A stretch of 42,555 nt of DNA from a virus. Positions 278 to 42,555 of the stretch are shown piece by piece (position 1 is the stretch's first letter; each line of letters opens with the position of its first letter). A program made the position numbers and the translations under genes. The stretch lies in IMG/VR virus record IMGVR_UViG_3300036766_000086, positions 1 to 42,555 of that record; one strand, written 5' to 3'. The notes below the pieces were generated by a model, which did not search any database, was not told the DNA's origin, and saw only the letters and a program-made list of their open reading frames with translations.

Positions 278-333
278 GCCCAACGCCGCCTTAACCGGCG
301 CCGAAGGAGTCCGCGTTGAAGGCACAGTTATGC
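278..333 (+). repeat. attC-like site
   Basis: The R'' core is GCCCAAC (278-284) and the R' core is GTTATGC (327-333). Between them the arms CCTTAACCGGCGCC and GGAGTCCGCGTTGAAGG resemble those of the other sites. R' departs from GTTRRRY but matches the GCATAAC core of the next partial site, so the two bound one cassette (328-523). Confidence 0.7.
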
Positions 334-351
334 AACACATTGGAGACTGAC

Positions 352-522
352 ATGGATGAAAGACTTGAAGCGGTGAGCGAGAAAATAAGGATGGGCATCC
401 CGGTAAGCATGATGGAGGCGATGGAGGCTATTGACTACCAGCAAAAGCTAAAAGCTGACAGGGATGCAGCGAGGGCAAAGACACTGCTCGGGCGATTCAT
501 GCGCTGGATTCGTGGTGCATAA
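352..522 (+). CDS. Small hypothetical protein (cassette gene)
   Basis: This is a 56-residue acidic-then-basic helical protein (MDERLEAVSEKIR..., ending ...RFMRWIRGA) with no recognised domain. ATG 352 is chosen because TTGGAGAC lies just upstream. A longer frame starting at 316 would run back into the attC site. The stop codon TAA overlaps the core GCATAAC of the following partial attC. The amphipathic, charged composition could suit a small DNA- or protein-binding factor, but function is unknown. Confidence 0.6.
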   Translation: MDERLEAVSEKIRMGIPVSMMEAMEAIDYQQKLKADRDAARAKTLLGRFMRWIRGA

Positions 523-545
523 CGTGTGAGGTAAGGGGCTAACCC
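517..545 (+). repeat. attC-like 5' half site
   Basis: GCATAACGTGTGAGGTAAGG matches the 5' half of the intact sites, but the stem return arm and the R' core are missing. Sequence runs directly into the ribosome binding site of the next gene. It is probably a decayed or deletion-derived site. Confidence 0.55.
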
Positions 546-770: not shown

Positions 771-800
771 GCCGAACGTAAAGGTAAGGGGCAGGCCGAC
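771..800 (+). repeat. attC-like 5' half site
   Basis: GCCGAACGTAAAGGTAAGGG follows the previous stop codon directly, as the R'' side of other sites does. No return arm or R' core is visible before the next gene. It marks the last attC trace before the NinG gene group. Confidence 0.5.
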
Positions 801-4154: not shown

Positions 4155-4700
4155 ATGGCAACCCCGGCACTTAATCCAAATATCGCCGCCAAGATCGTGG
4201 CCGACTGGCGGACTGGCGAATACAGCCAGCAAGACCTGTCCAATAAGCACAAGGTCAGCAAGGGCAAGGTCAACAATTTGTGCAAGGGCGTTGCGCAGGA
4301 TGCGGCTGCTATTGTGACCGCTGGTGTCAACTACACACAGAGCCTGTCCGCAATAGGCGAGCATGATGACCGTATCGTGACCGCCGTGACCGATGCGGTC
4401 AATAGAATCACTGAGGGGAACAACTTTTACAATTCAGCTCAGCGGTTTGTGTCCAAGGTTGCTATTCTTGGGATTAAGAAAATGCTCGATACGAACGGCA
4501 AGCCTAACAGTGAATTCAGTATGGCGGCGGTGAATCAGGCATCATCGGCGATAAGCACATCGCGCGTAGGCGAACTCGGCAAGGCTCCTGATACTGCAAT
4601 CCAGATCAACAATCAGCAGCCGCAACAGCCTATGACGCGAGAGCAATTGGTCATGCTGGCAGAGGAACGCGGATTGCCAACTAAGATATTCCAGCAATGA
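4155..4700 (+). CDS. terS: Terminase small subunit
   Basis: A 181-residue protein begins with a helix-turn-helix (AAKIVADWRTGEYSQQDLSNKHKVSKGKVNNLCKG), followed by helical oligomerisation sequence and a Gln-rich tail (QINNQQPQQPM). This is the layout of small terminase subunits, which recognise the packaging site and recruit the motor. It overlaps the large subunit start by four bases (ATGA), the usual coupled pair. Confidence 0.8.
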   Translation: MATPALNPNIAAKIVADWRTGEYSQQDLSNKHKVSKGKVNNLCKGVAQDAAAIVTAGVNYTQSLSAIGEHDDRIVTAVTDAVNRITEGNNFYNSAQRFVSKVAILGIKKMLDTNGKPNSEFSMAAVNQASSAISTSRVGELGKAPDTAIQINNQQPQQPMTREQLVMLAEERGLPTKIFQQ

Positions 4701-6130
4701 CCGAGATAGAAATTCTGGAAGAGCTTGCTTGCATAGAGGCGAGAGAATCATTCTATGCTTACCGTCAATATATTAATCCGAAACTTAAACTAGGTTGGTG
4801 GCAGAGGGAAGTTGCAACCGAATTGCAGCAGTTTTATGAAGACCTTTCGGCTGGACATTCACCTAAGCTGGTTATTCAAAGCCCCCCACAGCATGGGAAG
4901 TCTACCATTGTGATTGACTTCTTGTCGTGGATTGCCGGGAAAGATTCATCTTTGCGGACTATTTACACGTCTTTTTCTGAGCGTCTGGGCATACGGGCAA
5001 ACCTGCGAATGCAGCGGATAATGGATGGTCAAAAATATCATCGGGTTTTCGGAGCGCGAATTGGATTGACAATATCGGTCACGATTTCCAGCCAGTTATT
5101 ACGTAATAGGGAGATACTTGAGTACATTGGCGCTGAAGGTTATTTTAGAAATACCACTGTTTGCGGTAGCATTACAGGGGAATCGCTCGACCTTGGCGTG
5201 ATAGACGACCCAATAAAGGGCAGGGAGCAAGCACAGAGCTCGGTAATACGTCAAAAAACATGGGACTGGTTGACAGATGACTTTTTCACTAGGTTCAGCG
5301 AGCATGCGGGGCTGCTAGTTATATTGACGCGCTGGCACGTTGATGACCCAATTGGGCGGCTGCTTGAAAAAGATAAAACCATAAAACTGCTTACATATCC
5401 GGCCATAGCCATAAAAGATGATACATACCGGCGTATTGGCGAAGCATTATTCCCGGAGCATAAGAGCATAGAATTCCTTGAAAATATACGCTCAGTGATG
5501 GCGGTATCATCATTTGAGGCGTTATATCAGCAGGCACCAGTACTAATGGAAGGCAATCTATTTAAGCCTGACAATATCCCGATAATTGATGCATTGCCTG
5601 AGTATATTCAATACGTGAGAGCGTGGGACTTGGCCTCAACAGCAGGGGGAGGTGATTGGACTGTAGGTGCAAAAATAGGTATCACGTCCGATGGGTCGCG
5701 CATTATAATTGCGGACATCGTAAGGCTTAGAGGTAGCCCGGAGGAAGTCGAGGCAACTATAAAAAATACCGCGCAGCGTGACGGGAAAGAATGCACAATC
5801 AGATTGCCTCAAGACCCTGGACAAGCAGGGAAGGCACAGATTGCATATTTGACAAAGCAATTGATTGGGTTCAATATTCATTCTACACCGGTATCGGGCG
5901 ACAAAATCACCCGTGCAGAACCGTTTGCATCACAGTGTAACGTGGGCAATATATCAATGCTTAAAGCCGGATGGAACGATCAACTGGTGGATGAAATGCG
6001 GATGTTCCCTAATGGAACCTTCGATGATCAAATAGATGCGGGTTCAGACGCTTTCTCGGAAATAAGTCTAATTTATACCGGGGATGCGACTGTCGAGGTA
6101 TTTGGGTCAATGACTAAAATGGATTGGTGA
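4697..6130 (+). CDS. terL: Terminase large subunit
   Basis: A 477-residue packaging motor. The ATPase domain shows a Walker A-like PPQHGKST at about residues 63-70, a Walker B-like LGVIDDP near 166-172, and the coupling segment VILTRWHVDDPIGR. The C-terminal nuclease begins at RAWDLAST (about 308-315) and ends with FDDQIDAGSDAF near 447. This resembles the Mu gp28/Terminase_6C branch. Length is normal. It pairs with the small subunit immediately upstream. Confidence 0.95.
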   Translation: MTEIEILEELACIEARESFYAYRQYINPKLKLGWWQREVATELQQFYEDLSAGHSPKLVIQSPPQHGKSTIVIDFLSWIAGKDSSLRTIYTSFSERLGIRANLRMQRIMDGQKYHRVFGARIGLTISVTISSQLLRNREILEYIGAEGYFRNTTVCGSITGESLDLGVIDDPIKGREQAQSSVIRQKTWDWLTDDFFTRFSEHAGLLVILTRWHVDDPIGRLLEKDKTIKLLTYPAIAIKDDTYRRIGEALFPEHKSIEFLENIRSVMAVSSFEALYQQAPVLMEGNLFKPDNIPIIDALPEYIQYVRAWDLASTAGGGDWTVGAKIGITSDGSRIIIADIVRLRGSPEEVEATIKNTAQRDGKECTIRLPQDPGQAGKAQIAYLTKQLIGFNIHSTPVSGDKITRAEPFASQCNVGNISMLKAGWNDQLVDEMRMFPNGTFDDQIDAGSDAFSEISLIYTGDATVEVFGSMTKMDW

Positions 6131-6134
6131 ATAT

Positions 6135-8633
6135 ATGTTCGATACGCTCCGCGATAGAGTAAGGCAAACTTTCAAACTATCTGGGGGCGTACCGACTGTC
6201 AATACATCAGAAGCAGCATGGAGCGAAAGCTCTATGTATGTCAGTTCTAATTTTGTAAAATATAACCCGGATGCCCTTCTCTCCCGCAAAGGTTATGCAA
6301 TCTATCAAAAGATGATGACGGACGAACAGATTAAAGCTGTTGTCCGATTCAAGCGTGACGCAATTACATCCCGTGATTGGCAATTCACATTTGATAATGA
6401 CGATCAGTTATCAGAAGATGAGGCCGCGCTTCGTATTGCAATATTCACTGAGATAATTGAAGAAATGGAAGCGCCTTTCTCCGATGCGCTGAACGGCATT
6501 ATGTCCGCCATGTACAACGGCTTCAGCATGACCGAGAAGGTGCAGAAGGCGATTGTAGTCGATGGCAAAACGTGGATTGGTATCAAGCGCCTCAAGTTAC
6601 GCCCCTGCGATACGTTCTTTTTCCATGTTGATGAGTACGGGAATATTGAGCGCATAACCCAGAAGTTTGAAAGCCGCGAACAAGAATTAGATATTGAAAA
6701 GTTCATTCACTACATCCAAAACCCTGATTATGATGAGCATTATGGTCGTAGTGAGTTGCGCGAATGTTATCGGGCATGGTTCAGCAAGGATATGGTTATC
6801 AAGTTCCAGAACATTCATCTTGAACGATTCGCCGCTGGTTTTATCTGGGCAGCACCCAAGGAAGGCAAGACAATCACAACCGGAAGCGCTGAATTCGCCG
6901 CGCTGAAAGATGTGATGATGAATTTGCAGGCTACCTCCTCTATTATTTTGCCTTCCGGGATTGATCTTAATATCGAACACCCAGCGACTACGGACGCATT
7001 CGAGCGTGCTATCAGCCAGCACGATAAGAGCATAGCCAAGGCGTTGTTAGTACCTAACCTGATGGGTATCAGTGAGCAAGGAAGCACGGGCAGCTATTCG
7101 CAGTCACAGACACAGCTTGAGGCGTTTTTATGGACGCTTGATGCTGATGCCACTCGTCTTGAAGCGGTTATCAACAAGCAACTGTTCAAGGAATTGGGGG
7201 ACTTAAACTTCGGGGATGGAATATACCCTGACTTTAAATTCAAGCCGGTAAGTGATACCCGTAAACTGGAAGTCGTTAAGATTTGGAAAGACTTGGTAAT
7301 GACCGGGGCTGTCCAGGCGACTGATACGGACGAGGCATATATCCGCGATGCTCTGGAGATACCCAAAAAGGCCGTGATTGAAGGCGACGCACCGGACCTC
7401 ATACTGAACGGCGCTCAAACGACTTCGCTGGTCGGTATTGTTACGGCTGTTGGCGCTGGATCAATGTCGCCAGAAGCGGCGAAGGCAATTATTACTGCCA
7501 TATTCCCAATAAGCGAGGAACAGGCGAGTGCGATGGTGGATAAGGCAAAGGTTGAACCACTAGCACCTGTGGTTGACCCAAATGCACAGGTTCCACCTGT
7601 ACCGGACGCGAATGGGAATCCAGTACAAACAGCACTTGACCCAGCAGGCAATCCAATTAAACCTATGCCAGATGCAGGAAAACCAACAGCCAAACCCCTG
7701 CCCGATGAAACAATCGTTGGCAAGATGGGCGTATCAATTTCAGCATTCAGTAAGGCCATGAAGCGCGTGGACTTCGTTGTCATCGCGAATAAGGCCGATA
7801 ATCTGGTGGGCGATACCGTGCATGAACTGGCAACAATCAACTCCGAGGCTGTGGCGCGGCTTGTATTGCTGGCCGAGGAATTGAAACTTGGCACAGCGGA
7901 AGGTAATCCAGATGACCTGAAAAAGATTGTTTATACACCTGCCGAAGTCAGTAAATTGAAATCAGCCGCGACTAAAGGTCTGCAAGGTTCTTGGGATATT
8001 GGTATAAGCCACGCCAAGAAAGAGATGGCAAAGGCCAAAGGCGCTGCATTCAAGTCTAACGATATGGCACTGCAAGACTTGGCCGCGAAGTATCTCAAGG
8101 CCAAAGGATATACGCTGGCCGGGGACATATCGGGCAACACACAAAAGAAAATACAGAACATTCTGGCCGAGGGTACAAAGGTTAGCAAGACCGCCGCCGA
8201 TGTAAAAAAGGAAATCTACAAGGCGCTCGAAGCTGACGGGATGTTGACCGAGGAAGCCGTGGTTGAAGCGCTGGGTGCGGGTACTGTGAAGAATGCCAGC
8301 GCAAGAATTGATACTGCTATTCGCACAACTTCATTCGAGGCAATAAACGAAGCGAGATATGACTTTTTCAGCGACCCAGAACTGGCGGGTTTTGTTGAGG
8401 CGCTTGAGTATAGCGCCATCTTGGATGACCGGACTACCGAAATATGCTCACAGCTCGATGGCGCAACCTACGGCATAGATGCGGAAGAATGGTCAACTTT
8501 CCGTCCACCTAATCATTTTAACTGCCGATCGATCTTGATACCCGTAACCATTCAGGATACTTGGACACCAAGCGAATCACCAACAGTTAACCCGCAAAAG
8601 GGTTTTGGATTTACACGAAAGGAACTCACATGA
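6135..8633 (+). CDS. Portal protein fused to MuF-type head morphogenesis domain
   Basis: An 832-residue fusion. Residues 1 to about 450 form a Mu gp29-like (DUF935) portal, with YQKMMTDEQIKAVVRFKRDAI, RLKLRPCDTFFF and FLWTLDADATRLEAVINKQLF. A proline-rich linker (about 475-530, DPNAQVPPVPDANGNPV) leads to a MuF/SPP1 gp7-type domain ending in LDDRTTEICSQLDGATYGI...FRPPNHFNCRS. In Mu these are two adjacent genes, gp29 and gp30 (F). A single chain would tie one MuF copy to each portal subunit. The stop codon is followed by a fresh AAGGAGG for the next gene. Confidence 0.9.
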   Translation: MFDTLRDRVRQTFKLSGGVPTVNTSEAAWSESSMYVSSNFVKYNPDALLSRKGYAIYQKMMTDEQIKAVVRFKRDAITSRDWQFTFDNDDQLSEDEAALRIAIFTEIIEEMEAPFSDALNGIMSAMYNGFSMTEKVQKAIVVDGKTWIGIKRLKLRPCDTFFFHVDEYGNIERITQKFESREQELDIEKFIHYIQNPDYDEHYGRSELRECYRAWFSKDMVIKFQNIHLERFAAGFIWAAPKEGKTITTGSAEFAALKDVMMNLQATSSIILPSGIDLNIEHPATTDAFERAISQHDKSIAKALLVPNLMGISEQGSTGSYSQSQTQLEAFLWTLDADATRLEAVINKQLFKELGDLNFGDGIYPDFKFKPVSDTRKLEVVKIWKDLVMTGAVQATDTDEAYIRDALEIPKKAVIEGDAPDLILNGAQTTSLVGIVTAVGAGSMSPEAAKAIITAIFPISEEQASAMVDKAKVEPLAPVVDPNAQVPPVPDANGNPVQTALDPAGNPIKPMPDAGKPTAKPLPDETIVGKMGVSISAFSKAMKRVDFVVIANKADNLVGDTVHELATINSEAVARLVLLAEELKLGTAEGNPDDLKKIVYTPAEVSKLKSAATKGLQGSWDIGISHAKKEMAKAKGAAFKSNDMALQDLAAKYLKAKGYTLAGDISGNTQKKIQNILAEGTKVSKTAADVKKEIYKALEADGMLTEEAVVEALGAGTVKNASARIDTAIRTTSFEAINEARYDFFSDPELAGFVEALEYSAILDDRTTEICSQLDGATYGIDAEEWSTFRPPNHFNCRSILIPVTIQDTWTPSESPTVNPQKGFGFTRKELT

Positions 8634-30863: not shown

Positions 30864-30929
30864 ATCATCCCTTTGCTGCTTTTTTAATAATATCCCTGTA
30901 AACACCTTTTGAACGCAGGAAGCTGCAAC
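30829..30929 (-). repeat. Source copy of the 101-bp inverted duplication
   Basis: This segment spans the junction between two intact genes and is identical, in inverted orientation, to 114-214. Because both genes are intact here and fragmentary there, this is the donor copy. Position 30915 (G, - strand C) agrees with 128, not with the variant at 42479. Confidence 0.9.
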
Positions 30930-31378: not shown

Positions 31379-31440
31379 CCCTAACCCATCGGTGAAGCGG
31401 GAGCCGCAAAAGCGCGGCCCCCTTACCTCACACGTTAGGG
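31379..31440 (-). repeat. attC-like site (leftward array)
   Basis: On the - strand the R'' core CCCTAAC (31440-31434) and R' core GTTAGGG (31385-31379) are perfectly complementary. The stem GGGGGCCGC/GCGGCTCCC encloses GCTTTT. The stop codon of the upstream gene (31435-31437) lies inside R''. Confidence 0.85.
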
Positions 31441-31720: not shown

Positions 31721-31745
31721 CCCTAACCCATCATTCAAGCGTCTC
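31721..31745 (-). repeat. attC-like 3' half site (leftward array)
   Basis: On the - strand GACGCTTGAATGATGGGTTA continues into the R' core GTTAGGG (31727-31721). The R'' side and stem are absent, because the upstream gene ends directly at TGA 31746-31744. It is probably a deletion derivative that removed the 5' half. Confidence 0.6.
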
Positions 31746-31947
31746 AGTATTCCACTGATTCAAGCTTAAATTCATGTCCGCACTCTTGGCATTCGATCTC
31801 AAGTCCGCGCAAGTCATCCCATCGGTTGCTAAAAATTGCTTCCGATATGCAGTTATCTGCGTCATAGTCTCCAGATGCGAGGTCTATATCTTCCTCGCAC
31901 TTCGGGCATGAAAGCATCAAAGACCATTCAAGCTGTGCTGTTGTCAT
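31744..31947 (-). CDS. Zinc-ribbon protein (cassette gene)
   Basis: A 67-residue protein with CPKCEEDIDL and CQECGHEFKL, a classic two-knuckle zinc ribbon, separated by an acidic middle (SGDYDADNC). ATG 31947 follows ACGGAGAATATGAA; a longer frame starting at 31989 would run from within the attC. It begins 25 bases after the attC R' core at 31972-31978. Confidence 0.7.
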   Translation of the reverse strand: MTTAQLEWSLMLSCPKCEEDIDLASGDYDADNCISEAIFSNRWDDLRGLEIECQECGHEFKLESVEY

Positions 31948-31971: not shown

Positions 31972-32035
31972 GCCCAACCCGACGGTCAAGAGGGATCACG
32001 CAAAAGCGCGTGACCCCTTACCTCACACGTTAGCC
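31972..32035 (-). repeat. attC-like site (leftward array)
   Basis: On the - strand R'' is GGCTAAC (32035-32029) and R' is GTTGGGC (31978-31972). The stem GGGGTCACGC/GCGTGATCCC encloses GCTTTT. Its interior is nearly identical to the truncated site at 66-116 and 42417-42467, showing what those sites have lost. Confidence 0.9.
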
Positions 32036-32227
32036 ACCTCTGTGGCCTGTTTCAAGTTCGTTGAATTCATCGCACCATCCGTTTTGATAATGCACTTTTA
32101 GCTCGATCAAATCGTAATCATGCCCACCACAAAAAGGGCAGGTAAAATATACAGGTTCGGCGACTAACCCGGCGTTCAACGCAGACGTTGCGCCAGCGGC
32201 CTTGTTTCCGTTCAGTGATTCGTCCAT
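32030..32227 (-). CDS. Zinc-finger small protein starting inside an attC-like site
   Basis: A 65-residue protein. Residues about 26-38 hold YFTCPFCGGHDYD, a zinc knuckle, and W51 and C52 follow. The first 24 residues (MDESLNGNKAAGATSALNAGLVAEP) are encoded by the 3' arm of the attC-like site at 32162-32284. ATG 32227 has ACGGAG upstream. No ATG occurs in frame after the R' core, so either this chimeric start is real or a non-ATG start is used. The stop codon comes from the R'' core of the next site. Confidence 0.6.
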   Translation of the reverse strand: MDESLNGNKAAGATSALNAGLVAEPVYFTCPFCGGHDYDLIELKVHYQNGWCDEFNELETGHRGG

Positions 32228-32284
32228 GTTTTCTACTCCGTTTCGGGTGCATCGAGCGCACCGCTGGTTAACTTTACGTTACAA
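32162..32284 (-). repeat. Long attC-like site (leftward array)
   Basis: On the - strand R'' is TTGTAAC (32284-32278) and R' is GTTAGTC (32168-32162). Arms AACCAGCGG and CCGCTGG pair across a loop of about 60 bases, and GGTGC/GCACC forms an inner hairpin. At about 123 bp it is twice as long as the others, within the known attC size range. The next gene starts inside it. Confidence 0.65.
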
Positions 32285-33203: not shown

Positions 33204-33422
33204 AGTTATTCCCCCTCGAATGAGTACGAATCGTCAGCCTTACGGGTTCAACGTGCTAACTTCGACGCGTTGTACATTATCTCAACCCTTACCCCCCCCA
33301 GTATGCTTAAACAATAACCGCTGGTCTTTATCCTCCCCAGTTATTGCCTTTCCTGCGTAACCCTCTGGACGGGTACTTTATAAGCATCTAGTCTCGGTAT
33401 GCTTTCGCTCAGACAATAGAAA

Positions 33423-36593: not shown

Positions 36594-36622
36594 TTGCAGG
36601 ATAAAGTTTAGTTTGGTATAAT
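36594..36622 (+). promoter_or_regulatory. Rightward early promoter with operator-like spacer
   Basis: TTGCAG (36594-36599), a 17-base spacer and TATAAT (36617-36622). The spacer contains AAAGTTTAGTTTG (36603-36615), identical to that of the promoter at 39928-39956, and AAGTTTAG is the inverse of CTAAACTT at 36560-36567. It points into the cassette array, whose first attC-like half site starts ten bases downstream, similar in layout to the cassette promoter of an integron. Confidence 0.7.
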
Positions 36623-36631
36623 TCTTACATC

Positions 36632-36661
36632 GCGCAGTCCCGCTTGAATGAAAGGTTAGAA
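36632..36661 (+). repeat. attC-like 3' half site at the head of the array
   Basis: GCGCAGTCCCGCTTGAATGA followed by AAGGTTAGAA matches the 3' arm and R' core (GTTAGAA, 36655-36661) of the intact sites. The 5' arm is replaced by the phage promoter. This is the promoter-proximal boundary of the rightward array. Confidence 0.65.
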
Positions 36662-36666
36662 CTGAG

Positions 36667-36981
36667 ATGCCCATAAGACCTGAAAACAAAGCACGTTACC
36701 CGAAAGACTGGAAACTGAGAAGCAGATTCGTGCGCTATTACCGGGCGCGTAACCACTGCGAATGGTGTGGTGTTGAAAATGGCAAGCCACATCCGATTAC
36801 AGGTAGCAAAGTAGTTTTGACAACTGCACATATTTTTGACCATAGACCGGAAGCGGCAAGCCTGTTGAACCTGGCGGCGTTGTGCCAAAAATGCCACAAC
36901 GCGCACGATGCCAAAATGCGGCGTGCAGGCAGCAAACAAAGAGCGGAACTTGCGAGTGGACAAAATACTTTGCAGTTTTAA
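36667..36981 (+). CDS. HNH endonuclease (first cassette gene)
   Basis: A 104-residue protein with YYRARNHCEWCGVENGKPHPI, TTAHIFDHRPEAASLLNLAALCQKCHNAHDAKMR. These are the paired CxxC zinc knuckles, the AHI(x)DH core and NLxxLCxxCHNxHD of phage HNH nucleases. Such enzymes act in DNA processing, packaging or homing. ATG 36667 lies five bases after the attC-like R' core. The stop codon falls within the next R'' core (TTTTAAC). Confidence 0.85.
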   Translation: MPIRPENKARYPKDWKLRSRFVRYYRARNHCEWCGVENGKPHPITGSKVVLTTAHIFDHRPEAASLLNLAALCQKCHNAHDAKMRRAGSKQRAELASGQNTLQF

Positions 36982-37002
36982 CGTGTAGTTGAGGGGTTAT
37001 GT
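36976..37002 (+). repeat. Minimal attC-like site without stem
   Basis: TTTTAAC (36976-36982) and GTTATGT (36996-37002) are only 27 bp apart, with GTGTAGTTGAGGG between them. The central stem is lost. It bounds the first noncoding element cassette. Confidence 0.5.
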
Positions 37003-37134
37003 TTCACAATAGAGTAAGCATGTAAGCCCATGCGTACCAAGCCCATAAGTATCACATCTTTGCGAAAGCATAGACTATGGCGGCAAGAGTTTGGAGTTGG
37101 AAGTTGCGACCAGCACTCTACTGTGAAACATAAC
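36997..37134 (+). ncRNA. Noncoding 138-bp cassette element, copy A
   Basis: The segment runs from TTATGTTTCAC to GTGAAACATAAC, with terminal inverted repeats of about 19 bp. It encodes no plausible protein. Inner pairings include GCATG/CATGC and GCCCATA/TATGGC. It differs from copy B (37456-37593) at four positions, so both copies are recent or conserved. It could be a small RNA or regulatory element carried as a cassette. Confidence 0.6.
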
Positions 37135-37185
37135 GTAAAGTAACCGGCTCGCTTTAGCGAGTCCGAGTTGACCGCAGGGTTGGGC
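37128..37185 (+). repeat. attC-like site
   Basis: R'' ACATAAC (37128-37134) and R' GTTGGGC (37179-37185). The stem GGCTCGC/GCGAGTCC encloses TTTA, with one extra base in the 3' arm as in the other sites. Confidence 0.85.
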
Positions 37186-37212
37186 GGCAATTTTTAACAG
37201 GAGAAATATAGC

Positions 37213-37398
37213 ATGACACCAGAACGAATTGCTGAAATAGAAGCATCCTTTGGCGAAGGAGCAAAGCTTGTGCATTACTCACCGGCGATTGATGAGACAT
37301 GCGATCACGAGTGGCGCGATGGCGTAGACGGGAACCCAGAGCAATGTACTAAATGCGGGATTAGTTTCACTAGATATATTCACTGCTGCTGCCCTTGA
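37213..37398 (+). CDS. Zinc-ribbon protein (cassette gene)
   Basis: A 61-residue protein. CDHEWRDGVDGNPEQCTKCGISFTR is a zinc motif found in small phage proteins, with C/H ligands C30, H32, C45 and C48 and a CCC near the end. ATG 37213 follows CAGGAGAAATATAGC, 28 bases after the attC R' core. Function unknown. Confidence 0.75.
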   Translation: MTPERIAEIEASFGEGAKLVHYSPAIDETCDHEWRDGVDGNPEQCTKCGISFTRYIHCCCP

Positions 37399-37399
37399 C

Positions 37400-37461
37400 G
37401 CCCAACGTGTGAGGTAAGGGGCTGCCGCTTCTGGGCAGTCACCTCGAACGTAGGGTTATGT
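37400..37461 (+). repeat. attC-like site
   Basis: R'' GCCCAAC (37400-37406) and R' GTTATGT (37455-37461). The stem GGCTGCC/GGCAGTC encloses GCTTCTG. It starts two bases after the stop codon of the zinc-ribbon gene. Confidence 0.8.
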
Positions 37462-37593
37462 TTGACACTAGAGTAAGCATGTAAGCCCATGCGTACCAAG
37501 CCCATAAGTATCACATCTTTGCGAAAGCATAGACTATGGCGGCAAGAGTTTGGAGCTGGAGGTTGCGACCAGCACTCTACTGTGAAACATAAC
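37456..37593 (+). ncRNA. Noncoding 138-bp cassette element, copy B
   Basis: This is the same length as copy A with four substitutions. One is in GAG(T/C)TGG, which pairs with CCAGCACTC, and the two versions are a G-U and a G-C pair. Two others fall in the left terminal repeat and weaken its pairing. It is followed by an attC-like site, as copy A is. Confidence 0.6.
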
Positions 37594-37647
37594 GTATGAA
37601 TTCAGCGGCTCGCGCTTCTGCGAGTCCGTTGGAATGATGGGTTAGCC
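37587..37647 (+). repeat. attC-like site
   Basis: R'' ACATAAC (37587-37593) and R' GTTAGCC (37641-37647). The stem GGCTCGC/GCGAGTCC encloses GCTTCT. Confidence 0.8.
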
Positions 37648-37687
37648 GCCTACCCCAAAAAGAGCGACATAACTGAAAGGAAATTGT

Positions 37688-37855
37688 GTGACAACAACTG
37701 TAATTATCAAAGCACATTGCTCTAGCGACAAAGAGGTGAAAGTCATTGTCCGAGACAAGATTACCGGCGAAGATTTTACTCTGCAAGATGGCGAGACAGC
37801 CGAGCATTATATTTATGATGGCCGCGAAATCAGCGTGCAGGAAGTTACCAAGTAA
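37688..37855 (+). CDS. Small hypothetical protein with GTG start (cassette gene)
   Basis: A 55-residue beta-rich protein (MTTTVIIKAHCSSDKEVKVIVRDKITGEDFTLQDGETAEHYIYDGREISVQEVTK). GTG 37688 has AAAGGAAA upstream. It reads like a small beta-barrel similar to other short phage proteins that end in (R/E)EI(S/T)V.EV. It is followed by a hairpin and an attC-like site. No family named. Confidence 0.65.
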   Translation: MTTTVIIKAHCSSDKEVKVIVRDKITGEDFTLQDGETAEHYIYDGREISVQEVTK

Positions 37856-37860
37856 AGATT

Positions 37861-37886
37861 AAAACCCCTCTCAAAAAGAGGGGCGG
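37861..37886 (-). terminator. Hairpin terminator, active mainly on the - strand
   Basis: CCCCTCT (37865-37871) pairs with AGAGGGG (37877-37883). The + strand has AAAA before the stem, so on the - strand the hairpin is followed by TTTTAATC, a rho-independent terminator. On the + strand there is no T-run. It may block antisense transcription into the array. Confidence 0.55.
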
Positions 37887-37941
37887 CAACGTAAAGTAAC
37901 CGGCTTGCTTTAGCGAGCCCGGGTTGACCGCAGGGTTAGCC
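37884..37941 (+). repeat. attC-like site
   Basis: R'' CGGCAAC (37884-37890), degenerate, and R' GTTAGCC (37935-37941). The stem GGCTTGC/GCGAGCC encloses TTTA. Confidence 0.75.
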
Positions 37942-37964
37942 ACCTTTTGGTTACGGAGAACGAA

Positions 37965-38414
37965 TTGCTAACTATAACACCTATAAATCTTGACGAAGCA
38001 AACGCCTTTGTCTCAAAGCACCACCGGCATTATAAACCAGTGCCAGGGGCGAAGTTTTGCATTGCAGTTAGCGAAGATAATGTTGTGCGGGGCGTTGCAA
38101 TTGTTGGGAGGCCAGTCGCAAGGATGAGTGATACAGGCTTTACGCTCGAAGTAAACCGCTGCTGTACAGACGGTGCGCGTAATGCCTGCTCAATGCTCTA
38201 TGGCGCGGCATGGCGGGCGGCGAAAGCTTTGGGGTATCTCAGGCTTATAACCTACACATTGCCAGAAGAGGGTGGCGCGAGTTTGCGGGCTAGTGGATGG
38301 AAGAATATAGGATTAAGAGGGGGCGGAAACTGGAATGTTAAGTCACGCCCAAGGATTGATACCGCCGAATTACTACAAGGGCAAAAAACCTTGTGGGAAG
38401 CCTGCGGTGGCTAA
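37965..38414 (+). CDS. XF1762-type phage protein, acetyltransferase-like (cassette gene)
   Basis: A 149-residue protein (LDEANAFVSKHHRHYKPVPGAKFCIAV...GVAIVGRPVARM...LEVNRCCTDGARNACSMLYGAAWRAAKALGYLRLITYTLPEEGGASLRASGWK). These motifs are those of the XF1762 family of phage proteins, which have a GNAT-like fold pattern. TTG 37965 is chosen because ACGGAGAA is four bases upstream and the family starts with MLTI.P. The stop codon lies in the next attC-like core (GGCTAAC). Confidence 0.85.
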   Translation: MLTITPINLDEANAFVSKHHRHYKPVPGAKFCIAVSEDNVVRGVAIVGRPVARMSDTGFTLEVNRCCTDGARNACSMLYGAAWRAAKALGYLRLITYTLPEEGGASLRASGWKNIGLRGGGNWNVKSRPRIDTAELLQGQKTLWEACGG

Positions 38415-38466
38415 CGTAAAGTAACCGGCTTGCTTTAGCGAGTCCGGGTTGACCGCAGGGTTGTGC
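38409..38466 (+). repeat. attC-like site
   Basis: R'' GGCTAAC (38409-38415) and R' GTTGTGC (38460-38466). The interior is almost identical to 37134-37179. Confidence 0.8.
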
Positions 38467-38494
38467 GTAAACTTTCAACAACGAAGGATTAAAA

Positions 38495-38641
38495 ATGTCA
38501 GTAGGCAACGGAGCTATCCACATATACAAGAAAATTAGGTGTCAGCATTGCGGCAAGGAAACTGACGTACTATTTAAAAATAATCATGGCGTGTTGCATT
38601 GTAGCTGTGGCGCGGTGATTAATATTGATATTAAAGTATGA
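38495..38641 (+). CDS. Small zinc-ribbon protein (cassette gene)
   Basis: A 48-residue protein (MSVGNGAIHIYKKIRCQHCGKETDVLFKNNHGVLHCSCGAVINIDIKV) with CxxC and CxC, a minimal zinc ribbon. ATG 38495 follows GAAGGATTAAAA. It ends two bases into the flank of the next attC-like site. This size is common among integron cassette products of unknown function. Confidence 0.7.
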   Translation: MSVGNGAIHIYKKIRCQHCGKETDVLFKNNHGVLHCSCGAVINIDIKV

Positions 38642-38642
38642 C

Positions 38643-38705
38643 GCCCAACGTAGAGTTAACCGGCTCCGCGCTTTTGCGGAGTCCGGGTTGAACGATGGGT
38701 TAGGC
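38643..38705 (+). repeat. attC-like site, best consensus copy
   Basis: R'' GCCCAAC (38643-38649) and R' GTTAGGC (38699-38705) both fit the integron core consensus. Arms TTAACCGGCTCCGC and GCGGAGTCCGGGTTGA enclose GCTTTT. Aligning the arms leaves an extra T (GAGTCC) and an extra G (CGGGTT) in the 3' arm, the extrahelical-base asymmetry expected of attC hairpins. Confidence 0.9.
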
Positions 38706-38737
38706 TCTCACCCTTGACGAGAGCACAGGAGAACAAC

Positions 38738-38884
38738 ATGGGATTTAGCCTTGAACAAATGATTGCAGATCTTGAGGAATTAATTGCTTTGGAAACGAAC
38801 CCAACGGGCATTTTGCCAGAACTCGCTGAGCGGCTGACGTGGTGGAAAAACTACGCAAAAGAATGTGGGCAATTGAGGGCCTAA
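38738..38884 (+). CDS. Small helical hypothetical protein (cassette gene)
   Basis: A 48-residue acidic helical protein (MGFSLEQMIADLEELIALETNPTGILPELAERLTWWKNYAKECGQLRA). The start follows ACAGGAGAACAAC. The stop TAA is part of the next R'' core GCCTAAC. No family recognised; it resembles short helix-hairpin phage proteins. Confidence 0.65.
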   Translation: MGFSLEQMIADLEELIALETNPTGILPELAERLTWWKNYAKECGQLRA

Positions 38885-38941
38885 CGTGTGAGGTAAGGGT
38901 CGCCCGCTTTTGCAGAGTCCGCGTTGAACGATGGGTTGGGC
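38879..38941 (+). repeat. attC-like site
   Basis: R'' GCCTAAC (38879-38885) and R' GTTGGGC (38935-38941). The arms are less well paired than in neighbouring sites (GGGTCGCCCGCTTTTGCAGA). Confidence 0.8.
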
Positions 38942-38964
38942 TGAATTTTAAAAGAGGATATAAA

Positions 38965-39183
38965 ATGAAGTATAGCGAATATTTAATGAGTAGACGGCCA
39001 GCGAATAAAGAAAAAGAACGAATAGAACAGCACGTACAAGAATTATTAGCTCTATGGAGAGCCACAGCAGCATCTGTTGCTGGGTCAAGTAACTGCGTAA
39101 GAGAAACATCAGCAGGTGATTTTGCAAAGCAGGTAGTGCTAGATTATCAAAAATTTTGTGCCGAAGTAGGATGGCCGATATAG
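38965..39183 (+). CDS. Small hypothetical protein (cassette gene)
   Basis: A 72-residue helical protein (MKYSEYLMSRRPANKEKERIEQHVQELLALWRATAASVAGSS...KQVVLDYQKFCAEVGWPI). ATG 38965 follows GAGGATATAAA. A longer frame starting at 38839 crosses the attC site and is rejected. Function unknown. Confidence 0.65.
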   Translation: MKYSEYLMSRRPANKEKERIEQHVQELLALWRATAASVAGSSNCVRETSAGDFAKQVVLDYQKFCAEVGWPI

Positions 39184-39185
39184 AC

Positions 39186-39247
39186 GCACAACGTAAAGTA
39201 ACCGGCTCCGCGCTTTTGCGGAGTCCGCGTTGAACGATGGGTTGGGC
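39186..39247 (+). repeat. attC-like site
   Basis: R'' GCACAAC (39186-39192) and R' GTTGGGC (39241-39247). The stem GGCTCCGC/GCGGAGTCC encloses GCTTTT. Confidence 0.85.
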
Positions 39248-39260
39248 AACGAAAGGATGA

Positions 39261-39491
39261 ATGATGATAAATACAGGAATGACAACACCGCTTTGCGGGC
39301 ATTGTGGCAGACCAGTAATAGCGGGAACGGTATATTTTGGCGGGAACGCATACCACTATGAATGTACACAAAGTCCGAGCGGGAAACAGTCTTTTGTACC
39401 AGTGCAACTTTCGGAAGAGCAAATACGCCATATTGTGCGAGAAGAAGTGGCAAGATTAAGCGCGCCTTATGGTATGCCAACGTACTTTTAG
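39261..39491 (+). CDS. LIM-like zinc protein (cassette gene)
   Basis: A 76-residue protein. TPLCGHCGRPVIAGTVYFGGNAYHYECTQSP is the C-x2-C...H-x3-C knuckle of LIM-like phage proteins. A helical tail follows (LSEEQIRHIVREEVARLSAPYG). ATG 39261 and 39264 are both possible; AAGGA at 39253 gives better spacing to 39264. Confidence 0.75.
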   Translation: MMINTGMTTPLCGHCGRPVIAGTVYFGGNAYHYECTQSPSGKQSFVPVQLSEEQIRHIVREEVARLSAPYGMPTYF

Positions 39492-39542
39492 GCGACATAA
39501 AAAGCCTCTAACCAGAATGATTATTGACGTGGCCGCTATGAA

Positions 39543-39623
39543 GCCTAACGTATGATGGAGGTCTATCAATTAATTAAACTTTTACGCGCTTTTGCGGAGT
39601 CCGGGTTGAACGATGGGTTGGGC
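39543..39623 (+). repeat. attC-like site with altered 5' arm
   Basis: R'' GCCTAAC (39543-39549) and R' GTTGGGC (39617-39623). At 81 bp it is longer than its neighbours, because the 5' arm is replaced by sequence including TCAATTAATTAAACTTTTA (39566-39584), which recurs at 39900-39918. Confidence 0.75.
39566..39584 (+). repeat. 19-bp direct repeat, copy 1
   Basis: TCAATTAATTAAACTTTTA is identical to 39900-39918. Both copies follow a shortened attC R'' side (AACGTATGATGGAGGTC and AACGTGTAATATGGGTC). They flank the last cassette before the recombination operon and suggest duplication or recombination at this junction. Confidence 0.8.
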
Positions 39624-39646
39624 GGCACTTAACAACGAGGAACAGA

Positions 39647-39889
39647 ATGAAACTCGATAGCGACACACTAAAGAAAAGATTGAGATACCAGGGTAAACAA
39701 TATTCATCTGGAATGTTGTCAAGGGGAGGTAACCCAGAATTGCATATCATGACGCAAGCGGCGGACAGAATAGATGAACTTGAAAACGCACTATTTGATT
39801 TATTAAATGATTGCATAAATTTCAATGGCGGGAAATTGACGGATTGCATCATGGAGCACGCAAGTAAAATACTGACGCCCAACGTGTAA
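39647..39889 (+). CDS. Hypothetical protein (last cassette of this array)
   Basis: An 80-residue protein (MKLDSDTLKKRLRYQGKQYSSGMLSRGGNPELHIMTQAADRIDELENALFDLLNDC...). The AADRIDELENAL pattern is frequent in small phage proteins of unknown role. The C-terminus LTPNV and the stop are encoded by the R'' side of the following partial attC (GCCCAACGTGTAA), as in the protein at 42190. Confidence 0.7.
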   Translation: MKLDSDTLKKRLRYQGKQYSSGMLSRGGNPELHIMTQAADRIDELENALFDLLNDCINFNGGKLTDCIMEHASKILTPNV

Positions 39890-39899
39890 TATGGGTCGG
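39877..39899 (+). repeat. attC-like 5' half site at the array exit
   Basis: R'' GCCCAAC (39877-39883) is followed by GTGTAATATGGGTCGG. The stem and R' core are absent, and the phage promoter region follows. This marks the border between the array and the recombination operon. Confidence 0.6.
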
Positions 39900-39918
39900 T
39901 CAATTAATTAAACTTTTA
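39900..39918 (+). repeat. 19-bp direct repeat, copy 2
   Basis: Identical to 39566-39584. It lies between the partial attC-like site and the promoter at 39928. It is probably the original copy, because it is contiguous with phage promoter sequence. Confidence 0.8.
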
Positions 39919-39927
39919 AGAAATAGC

Positions 39928-39956
39928 TTTACATGCAAAGTTTAGTTTGCTATAAT
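39928..39956 (+). promoter_or_regulatory. Promoter of the recombination operon with operator-like spacer
   Basis: TTTACA (39928-39933), a 17-base spacer and TATAAT (39951-39956). The spacer contains AAAGTTTAGTTTG (39937-39949), identical to that of the promoter at 36594-36622. This implies common control, most simply by the Cro-like protein encoded at 36356-36550. Confidence 0.75.
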
Positions 39957-39996
39957 ACGCTTCAATATGTAAGTAAATTTGTTAAGGGAGAGAATG

Positions 39997-40344
39997 ATGG
40001 ACGCTAACACTTATTACCTGAATAAACATTTGGCAAAAGAAGACGAAGCTGAACACGCTCAAGACTGGAAAGATGACTATGTCGAGGAACTTTTGGCAGA
40101 GGGTGGAGAATATTATCCTTTTAAGCCTGAAAGTCTGCAAGAAGCCATTGCTGAATTGAAATTGCATGAAGCTATCCTTTTGTCATCGTATGCTCATGTA
40201 GCTCATAAGTTACCTAGCCAGTCATCTAAAGAATATTTGGCTGAATATCTAGGTAAGATTGTTTATGATTACTGGAAAGATGCTGCTGAAAAGAAAGCTG
40301 ACGTAGATTATAACGATCACTATCAAGGGAGGAAGTATGAATGA
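39997..40344 (+). CDS. Hypothetical protein, first gene of recombination operon
   Basis: A 115-residue acidic helical protein (MDANTYYLNKHLAKEDEAEHAQDWKDDYVEELLAEGGEYYPFKPESLQEAIAEL...). ATG 39997 is six bases after AAGGGAG; ATG 39994 is the alternative. As the first product after a strong early promoter it may be a takeover or anti-host factor, but nothing in the sequence identifies it. Confidence 0.65.
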   Translation: MDANTYYLNKHLAKEDEAEHAQDWKDDYVEELLAEGGEYYPFKPESLQEAIAELKLHEAILLSSYAHVAHKLPSQSSKEYLAEYLGKIVYDYWKDAAEKKADVDYNDHYQGRKYE

Positions 40345-40504
40345 CTACGCCGAAGTAATGGCTGAAATACCTCTAAAACTTCGGCAATTGTTAGATGCAT
40401 TCAACAATAAGGACATGAGCAAGGCTTTTGAGATTGCCGATGACATTCAGAATGATTGCTTCGGATTGAAACTTTTTATTATGGCTAATAAGGGGGTTAT
40501 ATGA
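40337..40504 (+). CDS. Small hypothetical protein of the recombination operon
   Basis: A 55-residue protein (MNDYAEVMAEIPLKLRQLLDAFNNKDMSKAFEIADDIQNDCFGLKLFIMANKGVI), mostly helical. ATG 40337 follows GGGAGGAAGT, overlapping the previous stop by eight bases and the next start by four. The chain of overlaps supports it as a real gene. Confidence 0.6.
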   Translation: MNDYAEVMAEIPLKLRQLLDAFNNKDMSKAFEIADDIQNDCFGLKLFIMANKGVI

Positions 40505-40716
40505 GCATGGGAAATTACGCCTTCCAAGAAGGCGAACAGAACGACTCAGTCATTAACGAACAAGAATACATGGAATGGATTGAAAGTATTGAAGGGTCTT
40601 ACCATTGCCCGTATTGCGGAACAATATCAGCAGAGCAAAAAACGTGCTGCGGTGAAAATCACATGCAATTGATTAGTGAAATGTCTAAGGAAGAGCAAAA
40701 GGAGAAATTAGCATGA
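40501..40716 (+). CDS. Small zinc-ribbon protein of the recombination operon
   Basis: A 71-residue acidic protein with YHCPYCGTISAEQKTCCGENH, a CxxC...CC zinc motif, and a charged tail (SEMSKEEQKEKLA). It overlaps the next gene by four bases, so it is co-translated with the annealing protein and may be its partner. Confidence 0.65.
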   Translation: MSMGNYAFQEGEQNDSVINEQEYMEWIESIEGSYHCPYCGTISAEQKTCCGENHMQLISEMSKEEQKEKLA

Positions 40717-41372
40717 GCGAAAAATCGCACTTCGAAGTTCTCGCCAGCATTGATGTATCCAAGCAATGCGAGAAAAAGAACGGGTTTACTTACCTATCAT
40801 GGGCGTGGGCTGTTGATACATTGCTTCGTGCAGACCCTACAGCCTGCTGGGAATATGGCGAACCTATGCGGTTTAATGAGTCTGTGATGGTATTTTGTAC
40901 CGTTACTGCATTTGGTAAGCCGATGACCATGCAACTACCTGTGATTGATTTTAGGAATAAGCCTATCTCTAACCCTTCGGCTATGGATGTAAACACAGCG
41001 ATGATGAGGTGCTTAGTAAAGGCTATAGCACTGCACGGGTTAGGACTTTATATCTATGCTGGTGAAGATATACCGGAAGAATCAAAGAAGCCTATAACAC
41101 CGCTTACTGGTGCATGGGAATCAATGGATGAAGAGTCACAAAAGTTCTTGCAGGGAATAGCAGATGATGTCATTAAAACATTTAAAATCTCAACAATAAA
41201 AGATACTGCTGAAATGTTAGCACGGAATGTTTTAGATAACGATGAGAAAGCAGCTTTGTGGACACGGTTTGATAGTAAATTAAGGGCAGCAATTAAGAAT
41301 TTTAACGCAGAAAAAAAAGTACAAGTTACAGAAGCAAGTTTTGACGAAATAAATTCAATTGGAGACAAGTAA
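40713..41372 (+). CDS. Single-strand annealing protein, Sak/DUF1071 type
   Basis: A 219-residue protein. FTYLSWAWAVDTLLRADPTACW, VFCTVTAFGKPMTMQLPVIDFRNKPI, and MDVNTAMMRCLVKAIALHGLGLYIYAGEDIP are the core motifs of DUF1071/Sak-type phage annealing proteins. These pair complementary single strands and drive recombination between related phages. The C-terminal part is variable. With the SSB-like protein and NinG it forms a recombination module. Confidence 0.9.
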   Translation: MSEKSHFEVLASIDVSKQCEKKNGFTYLSWAWAVDTLLRADPTACWEYGEPMRFNESVMVFCTVTAFGKPMTMQLPVIDFRNKPISNPSAMDVNTAMMRCLVKAIALHGLGLYIYAGEDIPEESKKPITPLTGAWESMDEESQKFLQGIADDVIKTFKISTIKDTAEMLARNVLDNDEKAALWTRFDSKLRAAIKNFNAEKKVQVTEASFDEINSIGDK

Positions 41373-41374
41373 AA

Positions 41375-41644
41375 ATGAAAAAAGTATACGATGCAGTGGC
41401 AGTAATTGGTGAATATAAAAACAAACAGGGCGAGACTAAAAAGAACTACCTCACTGTTGGAACAGTATTCCAGAACGATGATGGAACAATGAGCTTAAAA
41501 CTGAATGCCGTTCCTGTTTCGTTTTCTGGCTGGATTAATTTCTATGTTCCAAAAGAGAAAGAATCTGCTGCACCAGAATCTAAAGCACGTCCAGTTCAGC
41601 CTCAACTTAATAACGATAATTTTGATAATGATCTGCCTTATTAA
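41375..41644 (+). CDS. Single-strand DNA-binding protein-like
   Basis: An 89-residue protein. The body (VYDAVAVIGEYKNKQGETKKNYLTVGTVFQNDDGTMSLKLNAVPV) is a compact beta fold in keeping with small phage SSBs. The tail NNDNFDNDLPY resembles the acidic SSB C-terminus (DDDIPF) that recruits partner proteins. It lies two bases after the annealing gene, a standard pairing. Confidence 0.75.
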   Translation: MKKVYDAVAVIGEYKNKQGETKKNYLTVGTVFQNDDGTMSLKLNAVPVSFSGWINFYVPKEKESAAPESKARPVQPQLNNDNFDNDLPY

Positions 41645-41702
41645 CCATGCGAATAATACATAAGCTGCATTACTGCTACATTAAAAAGGTTAGGCGCTTA
41701 CG

Positions 41703-41840
41703 ATGAAATGTATCTGTGGAATCCTCTCAGTATCTTTTATTGTTGCCTGCCTCTGTGTATTTTTCACGATCAAGCTAACACCACCACCGAACGAAAACGA
41801 TAAGAGAATTATGGCGACTAAGTGGAAAGGGAAAAGATGA
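41703..41840 (+). CDS. Small membrane or lipoprotein-like protein
   Basis: A 45-residue protein (MKCICGILSVSFIVACLCVFFTIKLTPPPNENDKRIMATKWKGKR) with one membrane segment. VACLC could be read as a weak lipobox. It overlaps the next gene by four bases. It may be an early membrane-acting phage peptide. No ribosome binding site is obvious beyond TTACG upstream, so confidence is moderate. Confidence 0.5.
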   Translation: MKCICGILSVSFIVACLCVFFTIKLTPPPNENDKRIMATKWKGKR

Positions 41841-42118
41841 ACTCAATCAAAGACCAGCTCGATGCAGCATGGACAGAACGTAACAATCTCCGGTCTGAAG
41901 GTTACAAGCTCTATGCCGAAGGTTACAAGCTCTATGCCGAAGGTTACAATCTCCGGTCTGAAGGTTACAATCTCTGCATCGAAGGTGACAAGCTATATAC
42001 CGATGGTAACAATCTATGGGCTGATAAAGTTGCCGAGGTATGTGGATCAGAAGCAACCATAGAGTGGGCAACTACTGGTTGTAGGGTGATGGACATGGAG
42101 TTTAAGTCAACAGATTGA
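41837..42118 (+). CDS. Heptapeptide-repeat protein
   Basis: A 93-residue protein made largely of seven-residue repeats, (E/D)G(Y/D/N)(K/N)L(Y/R/C/W)(A/S/I/T), six copies in residues about 17-58, encoded by 21-bp tandem DNA repeats. Regular G, L and aromatic positions imply a continuous helix or solenoid. The C-terminal part (VAEVCGSEATIEWATTGCRVMDMEF) looks globular. Similar repeat proteins occur in phages without known function. Copy number may vary by slippage. Confidence 0.7.
   Translation: MNSIKDQLDAAWTERNNLRSEGYKLYAEGYKLYAEGYNLRSEGYNLCIEGDKLYTDGNNLWADKVAEVCGSEATIEWATTGCRVMDMEFKSTD
41886..42011 (+). repeat. Tandem 21-bp repeats
   Basis: Six copies of a unit like GAAGGTTACAAGCTCTATGC. 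The second and third units are identical (AAGCTCTATGCCGAAGGTTAC twice). The period keeps the reading frame, so gain or loss of units changes repeat number in the protein without frameshift. Confidence 0.85.
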
Positions 42119-42166
42119 GGAGGGGCTGGCGCTTCTTGCCAGTCCCTCTTGACCGCCGGGTTGGGC
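42105..42166 (+). repeat. attC-like site with degenerate R''
   Basis: R' is GTTGGGC (42160-42166) and the stem GAGGGGCTGGC/GCCAGTCCCTC encloses GCTTCTT. The R'' position reads AGTCAAC (42105-42111), a poor match. It follows the end of the recombination operon and opens a second cassette group. Confidence 0.75.
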
Positions 42167-42189
42167 GGCACTTTTAACGGAGAAAAAAA

Positions 42190-42429
42190 ATGAGCGGATT
42201 TAAAACAAAGTTTTGCTGGTTTCCTGTGCGATTGGCACGACATATAAAATGCGATGAGACTAAACCATTTGCCGATATTGGGCCAAATATGGAATTCATC
42301 GGGTGGGTGTGGATGCAACGCGCGCACTTAACTGACAACTTAAACCACGGATGGGTTGCATTCCTCGACAGCAAGCCGATGGAGCCGCGTTGCAAAACCT
42401 GCGGGCAACTGCTGACGCCCAACGTGTGA
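42190..42429 (+). CDS. Hypothetical protein (cassette gene)
   Basis: A 79-residue protein (MSGFKTKFCWFPVRLARHIKCDETKPFADIGPNMEFIGWVWMQRAHLTDNLNHGWVAFLDSKP...CKTCGQLLTPNV), with a CxxC near the end. The start follows ACGGAGAAAAAAA, 24 bases after the attC R' core. The final TPNV and stop are encoded by the next attC-like R'' side. Its last 25 codons reappear at 1-78 through the circular overlap. Confidence 0.7.
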   Translation: MSGFKTKFCWFPVRLARHIKCDETKPFADIGPNMEFIGWVWMQRAHLTDNLNHGWVAFLDSKPMEPRCKTCGQLLTPNV

Positions 42430-42555
42430 GGTAAGGGGTCACGCGCTTTTGCGTGATCCCTCTTGTTGCAGCTTCCTGTGTTCAAAAGGTGTTTACAGGG
42501 ATATTATTAAAAAAGCAGCAAAGGGATGATATGAGCCTCAAACAAGATATCCGTA
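42352..42555. repeat. Terminal direct repeat (circular overlap), right copy
   Basis: Matches bases 1-204 except for 42479 (T, versus C at 128 and C in the - strand source copy at 30915). It ends inside the 101-bp duplicated segment, a plausible place for an assembler to stop. Confidence 0.9.
42417..42467 (+). repeat. attC-like site, truncated (right copy of 66-116)
   Basis: R'' GCCCAAC (42417-42423) and the stem GGGGTCACGC/GCGTGATCCC are present. The 3' end with R' is replaced by the duplicated phage segment after CTTG. Confidence 0.75.

Follow-up and report, generated by a model that had tools for sequence, protein, structure and literature searches.

Reversed-polarity gene cassettes with integron-type attC sites in an uncultured phage genome, probably mobilised through host integron integrases

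The viral contig IMGVR_UViG_3300036766_000086 of IMG/VR (42,555 bases; hereafter the window, by which we mean the whole stretch analysed) carries two arrays of small genes interspersed with recombination sites of the integron attC type. One array lies on the plus strand and runs from 36.6 kb to the right end and over the join into 1-0.8 kb, and the other lies on the minus strand at 31.4-32.3 kb (Table 1). Terminase, portal, head protease and tape-measure genes identify the record as that of a tailed phage. Its ends (1-204 and 42352-42555) overlap by 204 bases with one mismatch, which is why IMG/VR does not class it as bearing end repeats, and the contig probably represents a single phage genome of about 42.35 kb, circular or terminally redundant. 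All viral sequences compared with it are metagenomic. Clusters of attC sites lacking an integrase (CALINs) were already reported from phages in 2023 (PMC9892861); the new element is the polarity, since nearly every phage cassette considered here holds its gene reversed relative to canonical cassettes, with the attC site upstream of the gene.

An earlier note, made from the letters of this DNA alone, had listed 21 related sites between the small genes. They were found where it had placed them, about 20 in all when partial ones are included (36631-36661, 36976-37002, 517-540, 771-793 and 39877-39918). For their statistical assessment, related sites were gathered from viral and bacterial contigs; requiring a perfectly complementary partner arm of 9 nucleotides returned 137 sites, against 0 in reversed sequence (2.09 Mb). 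In an alignment of 21 sites of equal length 93.9% of the cells were paired, compared with 79.6% in shuffles, and two-sided changes were seen in the terminal-stem and R-box pairs, which had not been used for site selection. The L-arm pairing had been so used, and L-arm covariation is therefore not counted as evidence. A covariance model built from sites of equal length only (R1) gave 16 matches in the window at E<1, 15 of them at E<2e-5; 82-114 and 42433-42465 are a single site counted twice via the end overlap, and the score of 38643-38705 is partly by construction, as this site belongs to the training set. The long-stem site at 32162-32284 (-) was contributed by an independent finder, not by R1. 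The core pattern TCCSNSTTGAMCGHNGGGTTRGGC occurs 7 times in the window and in none of 100 shuffles.

The same model gave 116 matches in 21 other viral records (read as 40 overlapping pieces, so that a few sites are double-counted) and 312 in bacterial loci, while none appeared among terminase-relative viral loci (1.04 Mb). At the working threshold, reversed sequence likewise yielded 0 sites. The covariance-model search that the earlier note had suggested thus places the window far above its controls. The sites display outer R boxes of the form RYYYAAC and GTTRRRY with a paired stem, together with L arms, an unpaired central spacer, extrahelical bases, a variable terminal stem and covariation. 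Judged by these features, they are confirmed as genuine integron attC-type sites; the cores, the stem and the extra unpaired bases of the 3' arm are as the earlier note described them, although several sites have decayed. Rfam holds no family for attC-type sites or for the gene-less cassette described below, and DNA folding of individual sites gave mixed z-scores and is not relied on. The integron integrase (IntI) model NF011946, loose enough to match all 14 control genomes, had no match in the window, nor did a tyrosine recombinase of this type turn up in the 21 viral records with the same sites, several of which are fragments. No complete integron was recognised in the window, where attI was not searched for separately; with at least two attC sites and no nearby integron integrase, the arrays qualify as CALINs, as had been claimed.

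A canonical cassette has its extrahelical bases in the 5' arm, as read on the gene strand, and its attC site downstream of the gene. The sites of the window have them in the 3' arm when read along the genes (T, N three pairs on, then G). Such bases on one arm set the strand that IntI recombines, and with it the orientation of the inserted gene (PMC8946536). The rule was controlled in two ways: in plasmid pB12, which carries a class 1 integron, the finder's call for the qacG2 attC was antisense to the gene, and host loci with intI had their sites on the same strand as intI and the array upstream of it, as in canonical integrons. The cassettes of the window and of the other phages are therefore reversed, and the assumption of the earlier note that the sites are canonical did not hold.

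For the polarity counts, both ends of each site were examined in the same way for a Shine-Dalgarno sequence and start codon directed outwards. The window gave 5 reversed and 0 canonical cases, the 21 viral records 57 and 1, and a held-out viral set found with a different core pattern 44 and 1; bacterial loci gave 48 canonical and 23 reversed. An attC site downstream of the gene, with the recombinogenic strand opposite to the coding strand, is thus not the arrangement of the window or the viral records, whereas the same model finds canonical polarity in the published CALIN of Tetrasphaera phage TJE1. The start-codon test replaced a longest-open-reading-frame vote that is noisy on short genes, the first such vote having pointed the same way.

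A circular cassette supplies both R boxes of the attC site that it carries, and in an array these two boxes flank its gene. Perfect complementarity was required at the four variable positions, and was seen in viral arrays for 29 of 54 pairs across a gene, 5 of 54 within a site and 25 of 236 other pairs (Fisher p = 3e-11 for flanking against other pairs). Bacterial arrays (75/110, 25/110 and 106/526, respectively) and the held-out viral set (27/42, 3/42 and 15/160) behave alike, and R boxes complementary across the gene, the mark of a cassette's circular form, are hence present. Comparison of cassette content between relatives, also proposed earlier, and between unrelated phages revealed exchange of exactly one cassette, with breaks at the R box. 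L409 and L410 have 472 nucleotides in common (99.6%), starting at the AAC of the R box before the gene, stopping just past the next R box and taking in the upstream attC. L384 and L404 agree over a cassette body of 286/286 nucleotides, their upstream attC sites being 87% alike and their downstream ones 44%, and the identity shared by L234 and L396 also starts at AAC. In all three pairs the attC upstream of the gene travels along, which is independent evidence of the reversed polarity. Identity between the close relatives G010 and G017 extends up to TTCTAAC; beyond it their genes differ, G017 holding one gene more. These breakpoints and the linkage to the upstream attC agree with IntI recombination in which the bottom strand is preferred.

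Reversed arrays are present in dozens of other uncultured viral contigs, whose proteins are mostly unrelated to those of the window and whose portal and terminase genes fall into at least five PHROG families. Judging from these genes, the array trait is spread over several phage lineages with common hosts. Vertical inheritance together with this terminase was considered and rejected, as the terminase relatives (L011-L090) are without these sites. A search of 50,697 cultured-phage records with two attC queries gave nothing convincing, a weak test given the short queries, and a BLAST comparison of the array region with cultured phages and plasmids turned up nothing beyond the Sak-like gene and single short hits.

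Nitrosomonadales-like bacteria commonly carry the same attC type. A full-length integrase match (E<1e-90) was obtained in 25 of the 28 bacterial genomes with this type, and 84 of 150 sampled Methylophilaceae genomes had model matches. The clearest view of phage-type cassettes in a host comes from L354, a metagenome-assembled genome sequence of Methylotenera (14,977 bases), in which an integron integrase (TIGR02249, 479 bits) adjoins ilvD. By-eye reading finds an attI box followed by five cassettes that are all gene-reversed and have perfectly matched R boxes, the sixth being canonical. The reversed cassettes include a C-5 cytosine methylase gene, and one of their genes is 87% identical to a cassette of phage G003. 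New cassettes normally enter an integron at attI. As the reversed cassettes adjoin this entry point, L354 looks like a recent capture of phage-type cassettes, in which the direction of transfer would be from phage to host. Reversed cassettes also occur within otherwise canonical arrays in a Thiobacillus locus (L203, integrase 469 bits) and a Nitrosomonadales locus (L173). In the window itself, 33229-33347 (-) matches Rfam family RF02932 (Betaproteobacteria-1 RNA, 60.9 bits), which fits a betaproteobacterial host; DNA overlapping or near this element is also similar in G011 and G021.

Table 1. Features of the window discussed in the text (aa, amino acids; R1, score with the covariance model).
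Feature	Position	Strand	Evidence or remark
Terminase large subunit gene	4697..6130	+	phrog_38, 3e-74; marks record as phage
Portal protein gene	6135..8633	+	phrog_113, 7e-66
Cassette gene, 59 aa	31175..31354	-	
attC	31379..31440	-	R1 61.7 bits
Cassette gene, 86 aa	31435..31695	-	
Decayed attC, 3' half	31721..31782	-	R1 14.5 bits, E = 0.18
Cassette gene, 67 aa, zinc-ribbon-like	31744..31947	-	
attC	31972..32035	-	R1 73.2 bits
Cassette gene, 65 aa, starts inside attC loop	32030..32227	-	
Long-stem attC, loop holds next gene's start codon	32162..32284	-	Finder score 20.0; 84% identical stretch in G008
Promoter-like element AAAGTTTAGTTTGGTATAAT, array start	36603..36622	+	Repeat D13, 95% identical to 39937-39956
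Partial attC, 3' half only, opens array	36631..36661	+	Sequence
Cassette gene, HNH-endonuclease-like by eye	36667..36981	+	No Pfam/NCBIfam match
Degenerate attC, stem deleted	36976..37002	+	Sequence
Gene-less cassette copy 1, matched R boxes GTTATGT/ACATAAC	36994..37137	+	97% identical to copy 2
attC	37128..37185	+	R1 44.6 bits
Cassette gene, 61 aa, zinc-finger-like	37213..37398	+	
attC	37400..37461	+	R1 35.3 bits
Gene-less cassette copy 2	37453..37596	+	97% identical to copy 1
attC	37587..37647	+	R1 35.4 bits
Cassette gene, 55 aa	37688..37855	+	
attC	37884..37941	+	R1 38.6 bits
Cassette gene, XF1762/Mom-like	37968..38414	+	NCBIfam XF1762_fam 202 bits; Pfam Mom below cut-off
attC	38409..38466	+	R1 45.5 bits
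Cassette gene, 48 aa, zinc ribbon	38495..38641	+	Relative in G012 cassette
attC, best preserved	38643..38705	+	R1 83.7 bits (site also in model); DNA fold z = -3.3
Cassette gene, 48 aa	38738..38884	+	Also in phage G001 (90% aa)
attC	38879..38941	+	R1 32.5 bits
Cassette gene, 72 aa	38965..39183	+	Relative in G018 (58% aa)
attC	39186..39247	+	R1 68.2 bits
Cassette gene, 76 aa, zinc-ribbon-like	39261..39491	+	
attC, A+T-rich non-pairing 5' arm	39543..39623	+	R1 29.7 bits (39561-39623); poor fold
Cassette gene, 80 aa	39647..39889	+	
Partial attC, 5' half, ends this array stretch	39877..39918	+	Repeat D8
Sak-like protein gene, beside array	40713-41372		BLAST similarity to a SAK-like protein; SSB-like gene adjacent
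attC	42105..42166	+	R1 35.0 bits
Cassette gene, 79 aa	42190..42429	+	
attC without 3' core, fused to copied fragment	42417..42465	+	R1 36.4 bits (42433-42465); repeated at 66-114
attC, array continued across circular join	278..333	+	R1 30.6 bits
Partial attC, 5' half	517..540	+	Sequence
Partial attC, 5' half	771..793	+	Sequence

Most units of the arrays are single genes, each preceded by a ribosome binding site of its own, and within an array they share one orientation, much as the earlier note had it; two units of the plus array, however, are one duplicated gene-less cassette. This cassette recurs outside the window: 126/126 nucleotides of the copy at 36994-37137 are identical in the unrelated phage G013, whose structural genes are different (126-nucleotide stretch at L237 13947-14072). 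Its predicted RNA fold (-47.7 kcal/mol, z = -4.4) makes it a candidate for a small RNA travelling as a cassette; no sigma-70-like promoter was found within it. The XF1762/Mom-like gene likely has a product that modifies DNA. Mom-like genes are common in phages (291 stretches), and the idea that this gene is tied to cassettes was discarded, 80 of its loci having given one marginal attC match; NinG neighbours were found at two loci only. A reverse transcriptase gene (phrog_1423) is present at L246:10062-11567 (-), in a viral contig that also bears reversed cassettes.

Long attC sites with a start codon in the loop were seen at 32162-32284 and in L106, L115, L118, L145 and L194. In such sites the protein begins inside attC, and the 3' arm encodes part of it (e.g., SVLTAGLG). 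The promoter-like sequence stands both before (36603-36622) and after (39937-39956) the plus array, and each copy has a half attC on its array-facing side. Scored as TTTACA-17-TATAAT, the second copy reaches 11/12; a single early promoter, present twice, may bracket the array. At the array end about 100 bases of a minus-strand gene (30822-30925 -) recur at 115-215 and 42465-42555 (+), joined to a truncated attC stem in what, by its sequence, is an illegitimate join. A coding tandem repeat at 41876-42022, with a 21-base unit in six copies in register, directly precedes the right part of the array, and the structural region holds at 13672-14981 two neighbouring genes of about 218 amino acids with CxxxCxxC-like motifs and a radical-SAM-like appearance.

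We propose, with a probability of about 0.82, that the two CALIN-like arrays stem from a phage cassette pool of reversed polarity whose members would be mobilised and captured via a host integron integrase. The unit order in this pool would be attC, then ribosome binding site, then gene, with the recombinogenic (bottom-type) attC strand being the coding strand. IntI of hosts among Methylophilaceae, Gallionellaceae, Thiobacillus and their kin would act in trans, excising and inserting units at the R box, so that accessory genes could pass between phages as single cassettes, which host integrons could capture too. Owing to the reversal, phage cassettes that entered a host integron would not be expressed from its Pc promoter, while host cassettes carried by a phage would lie antisense, a barrier that would separate the two pools. 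The uniform reversal would follow if only cassettes reading with phage transcription were kept and the founding units of the pool were reversed. What we infer is the role of IntI in the moves, their running in both directions, and the reason for the reversed polarity. A supply of integrase by the host, already put forward in the earlier note, is the best-supported reading, given the lack of an integrase match in the window and the 21 viral records and its presence in most host genomes with this attC type.

Several points weigh against this proposal. Some R-box pairs of the window are mismatched and several of its sites have decayed; no close relative of the window bearing a different array was found; and host integrons with phage-type cassettes number only three, all in metagenome-assembled genomes, with an opposite-strand reading of L173 staying an alternative. 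Moreover, the genes for a Sak-like annealing protein and an SSB-like protein beside the array could shuffle cassettes by attC-stem homology. The explanation that competes best is built on these genes: recombination between attC stems, homologous or by single-strand annealing, would shuffle the cassettes, and the attC sites would be relics that no integrase now uses. The stems are indeed 85-98% alike between phages, the few mismatched R-box pairs of the window would be expected, and the homology of L404 and L412 stops inside attC sites. Annealing, however, gives no reason for the complementarity of the two R boxes that flank one gene, and it is contradicted by the breaks of identity at the R box in the four pairs of contigs described above and by a cassette that, in a host integron, is placed precisely at the attI box. 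We consider it unlikely.

A much less probable account takes the hairpins to be kept as 5' leaders of small genes, acting through RNA structure or translation control, with an attC look that is inherited and unused. A hairpin does stand upstream of the gene in every reversed cassette, and a start codon lies inside the loop at 32162-32284 and in L106, L115 and L118, but a leader requires neither R boxes that pair across the gene rather than within the site nor the conservation of AAC and GTT cores with extrahelical bases. Chimeric assemblies, or contigs of bacterial integrons wrongly labelled viral, come to mind because the viral records are metagenomic and the end overlap of the window has a mismatch, yet they are the least credible option of all, as such reversed arrays recur across many contigs whose terminase, portal or virion genes represent at least five families, and their polarity is opposite to that of bacterial arrays.

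Phage genomes are mosaics, usually accounted for by homologous or illegitimate recombination. Mobilisation through host IntI would add a third route to this mosaicism, namely single-gene exchange at defined sites by an enzyme that the host keeps for its own use. We lean slightly towards a wider version of this proposal, in which phages keep their own reversed pool by borrowing the host integrase, polarity separates the pools, and host integrons serve as silent stores of phage genes for further phages. The strand choice of integrons has been explained by the need for correct gene orientation to the Pc promoter (PMC8946536). A numerous natural pool of the opposite orientation is an unexpected exception to this explanation and suggests that a cassette can be selected for its expression under promoters different from Pc. 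Polarity could also mark out phage-derived cassettes in bacterial integrons; the proteins encoded by many such cassettes have no known function.

In the open-licence papers searched, neither reversed cassettes in phages nor phage-type cassettes in host integrons had been described. The gene-less cassette resembles the gene-less (promoter) cassettes of Vibrio superintegrons (PMC11014356) in being a short cassette without an open reading frame; here it is duplicated and common to different phages, and differs in its strongly structured RNA fold and in having no sigma-70-like promoter that could be found. The sedentary chromosomal integrons of Methylophilaceae, Gallionellaceae, Thiobacillus and relatives share with the window the attC sequence type and the R-box signature, but, unlike the window, possess their own intI and attI and hold their genes in canonical orientation. 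The nearest known system is that of the phage CALINs (e.g., Tetrasphaera phage TJE1), for which attC x attI1 recombination by IntI1 was shown with five phage sites (Qi et al., PMC9892861). These have in common with the present arrays the clusters of attC sites without integrase and the small cassette genes, DNA-modification genes among them. The polarity of the TJE1 array is canonical, whereas the arrays described here are longer and have their genes reversed; in addition, their attC sites are of a Nitrosomonadales-like host type, and host integrons hold cassettes of the same type.

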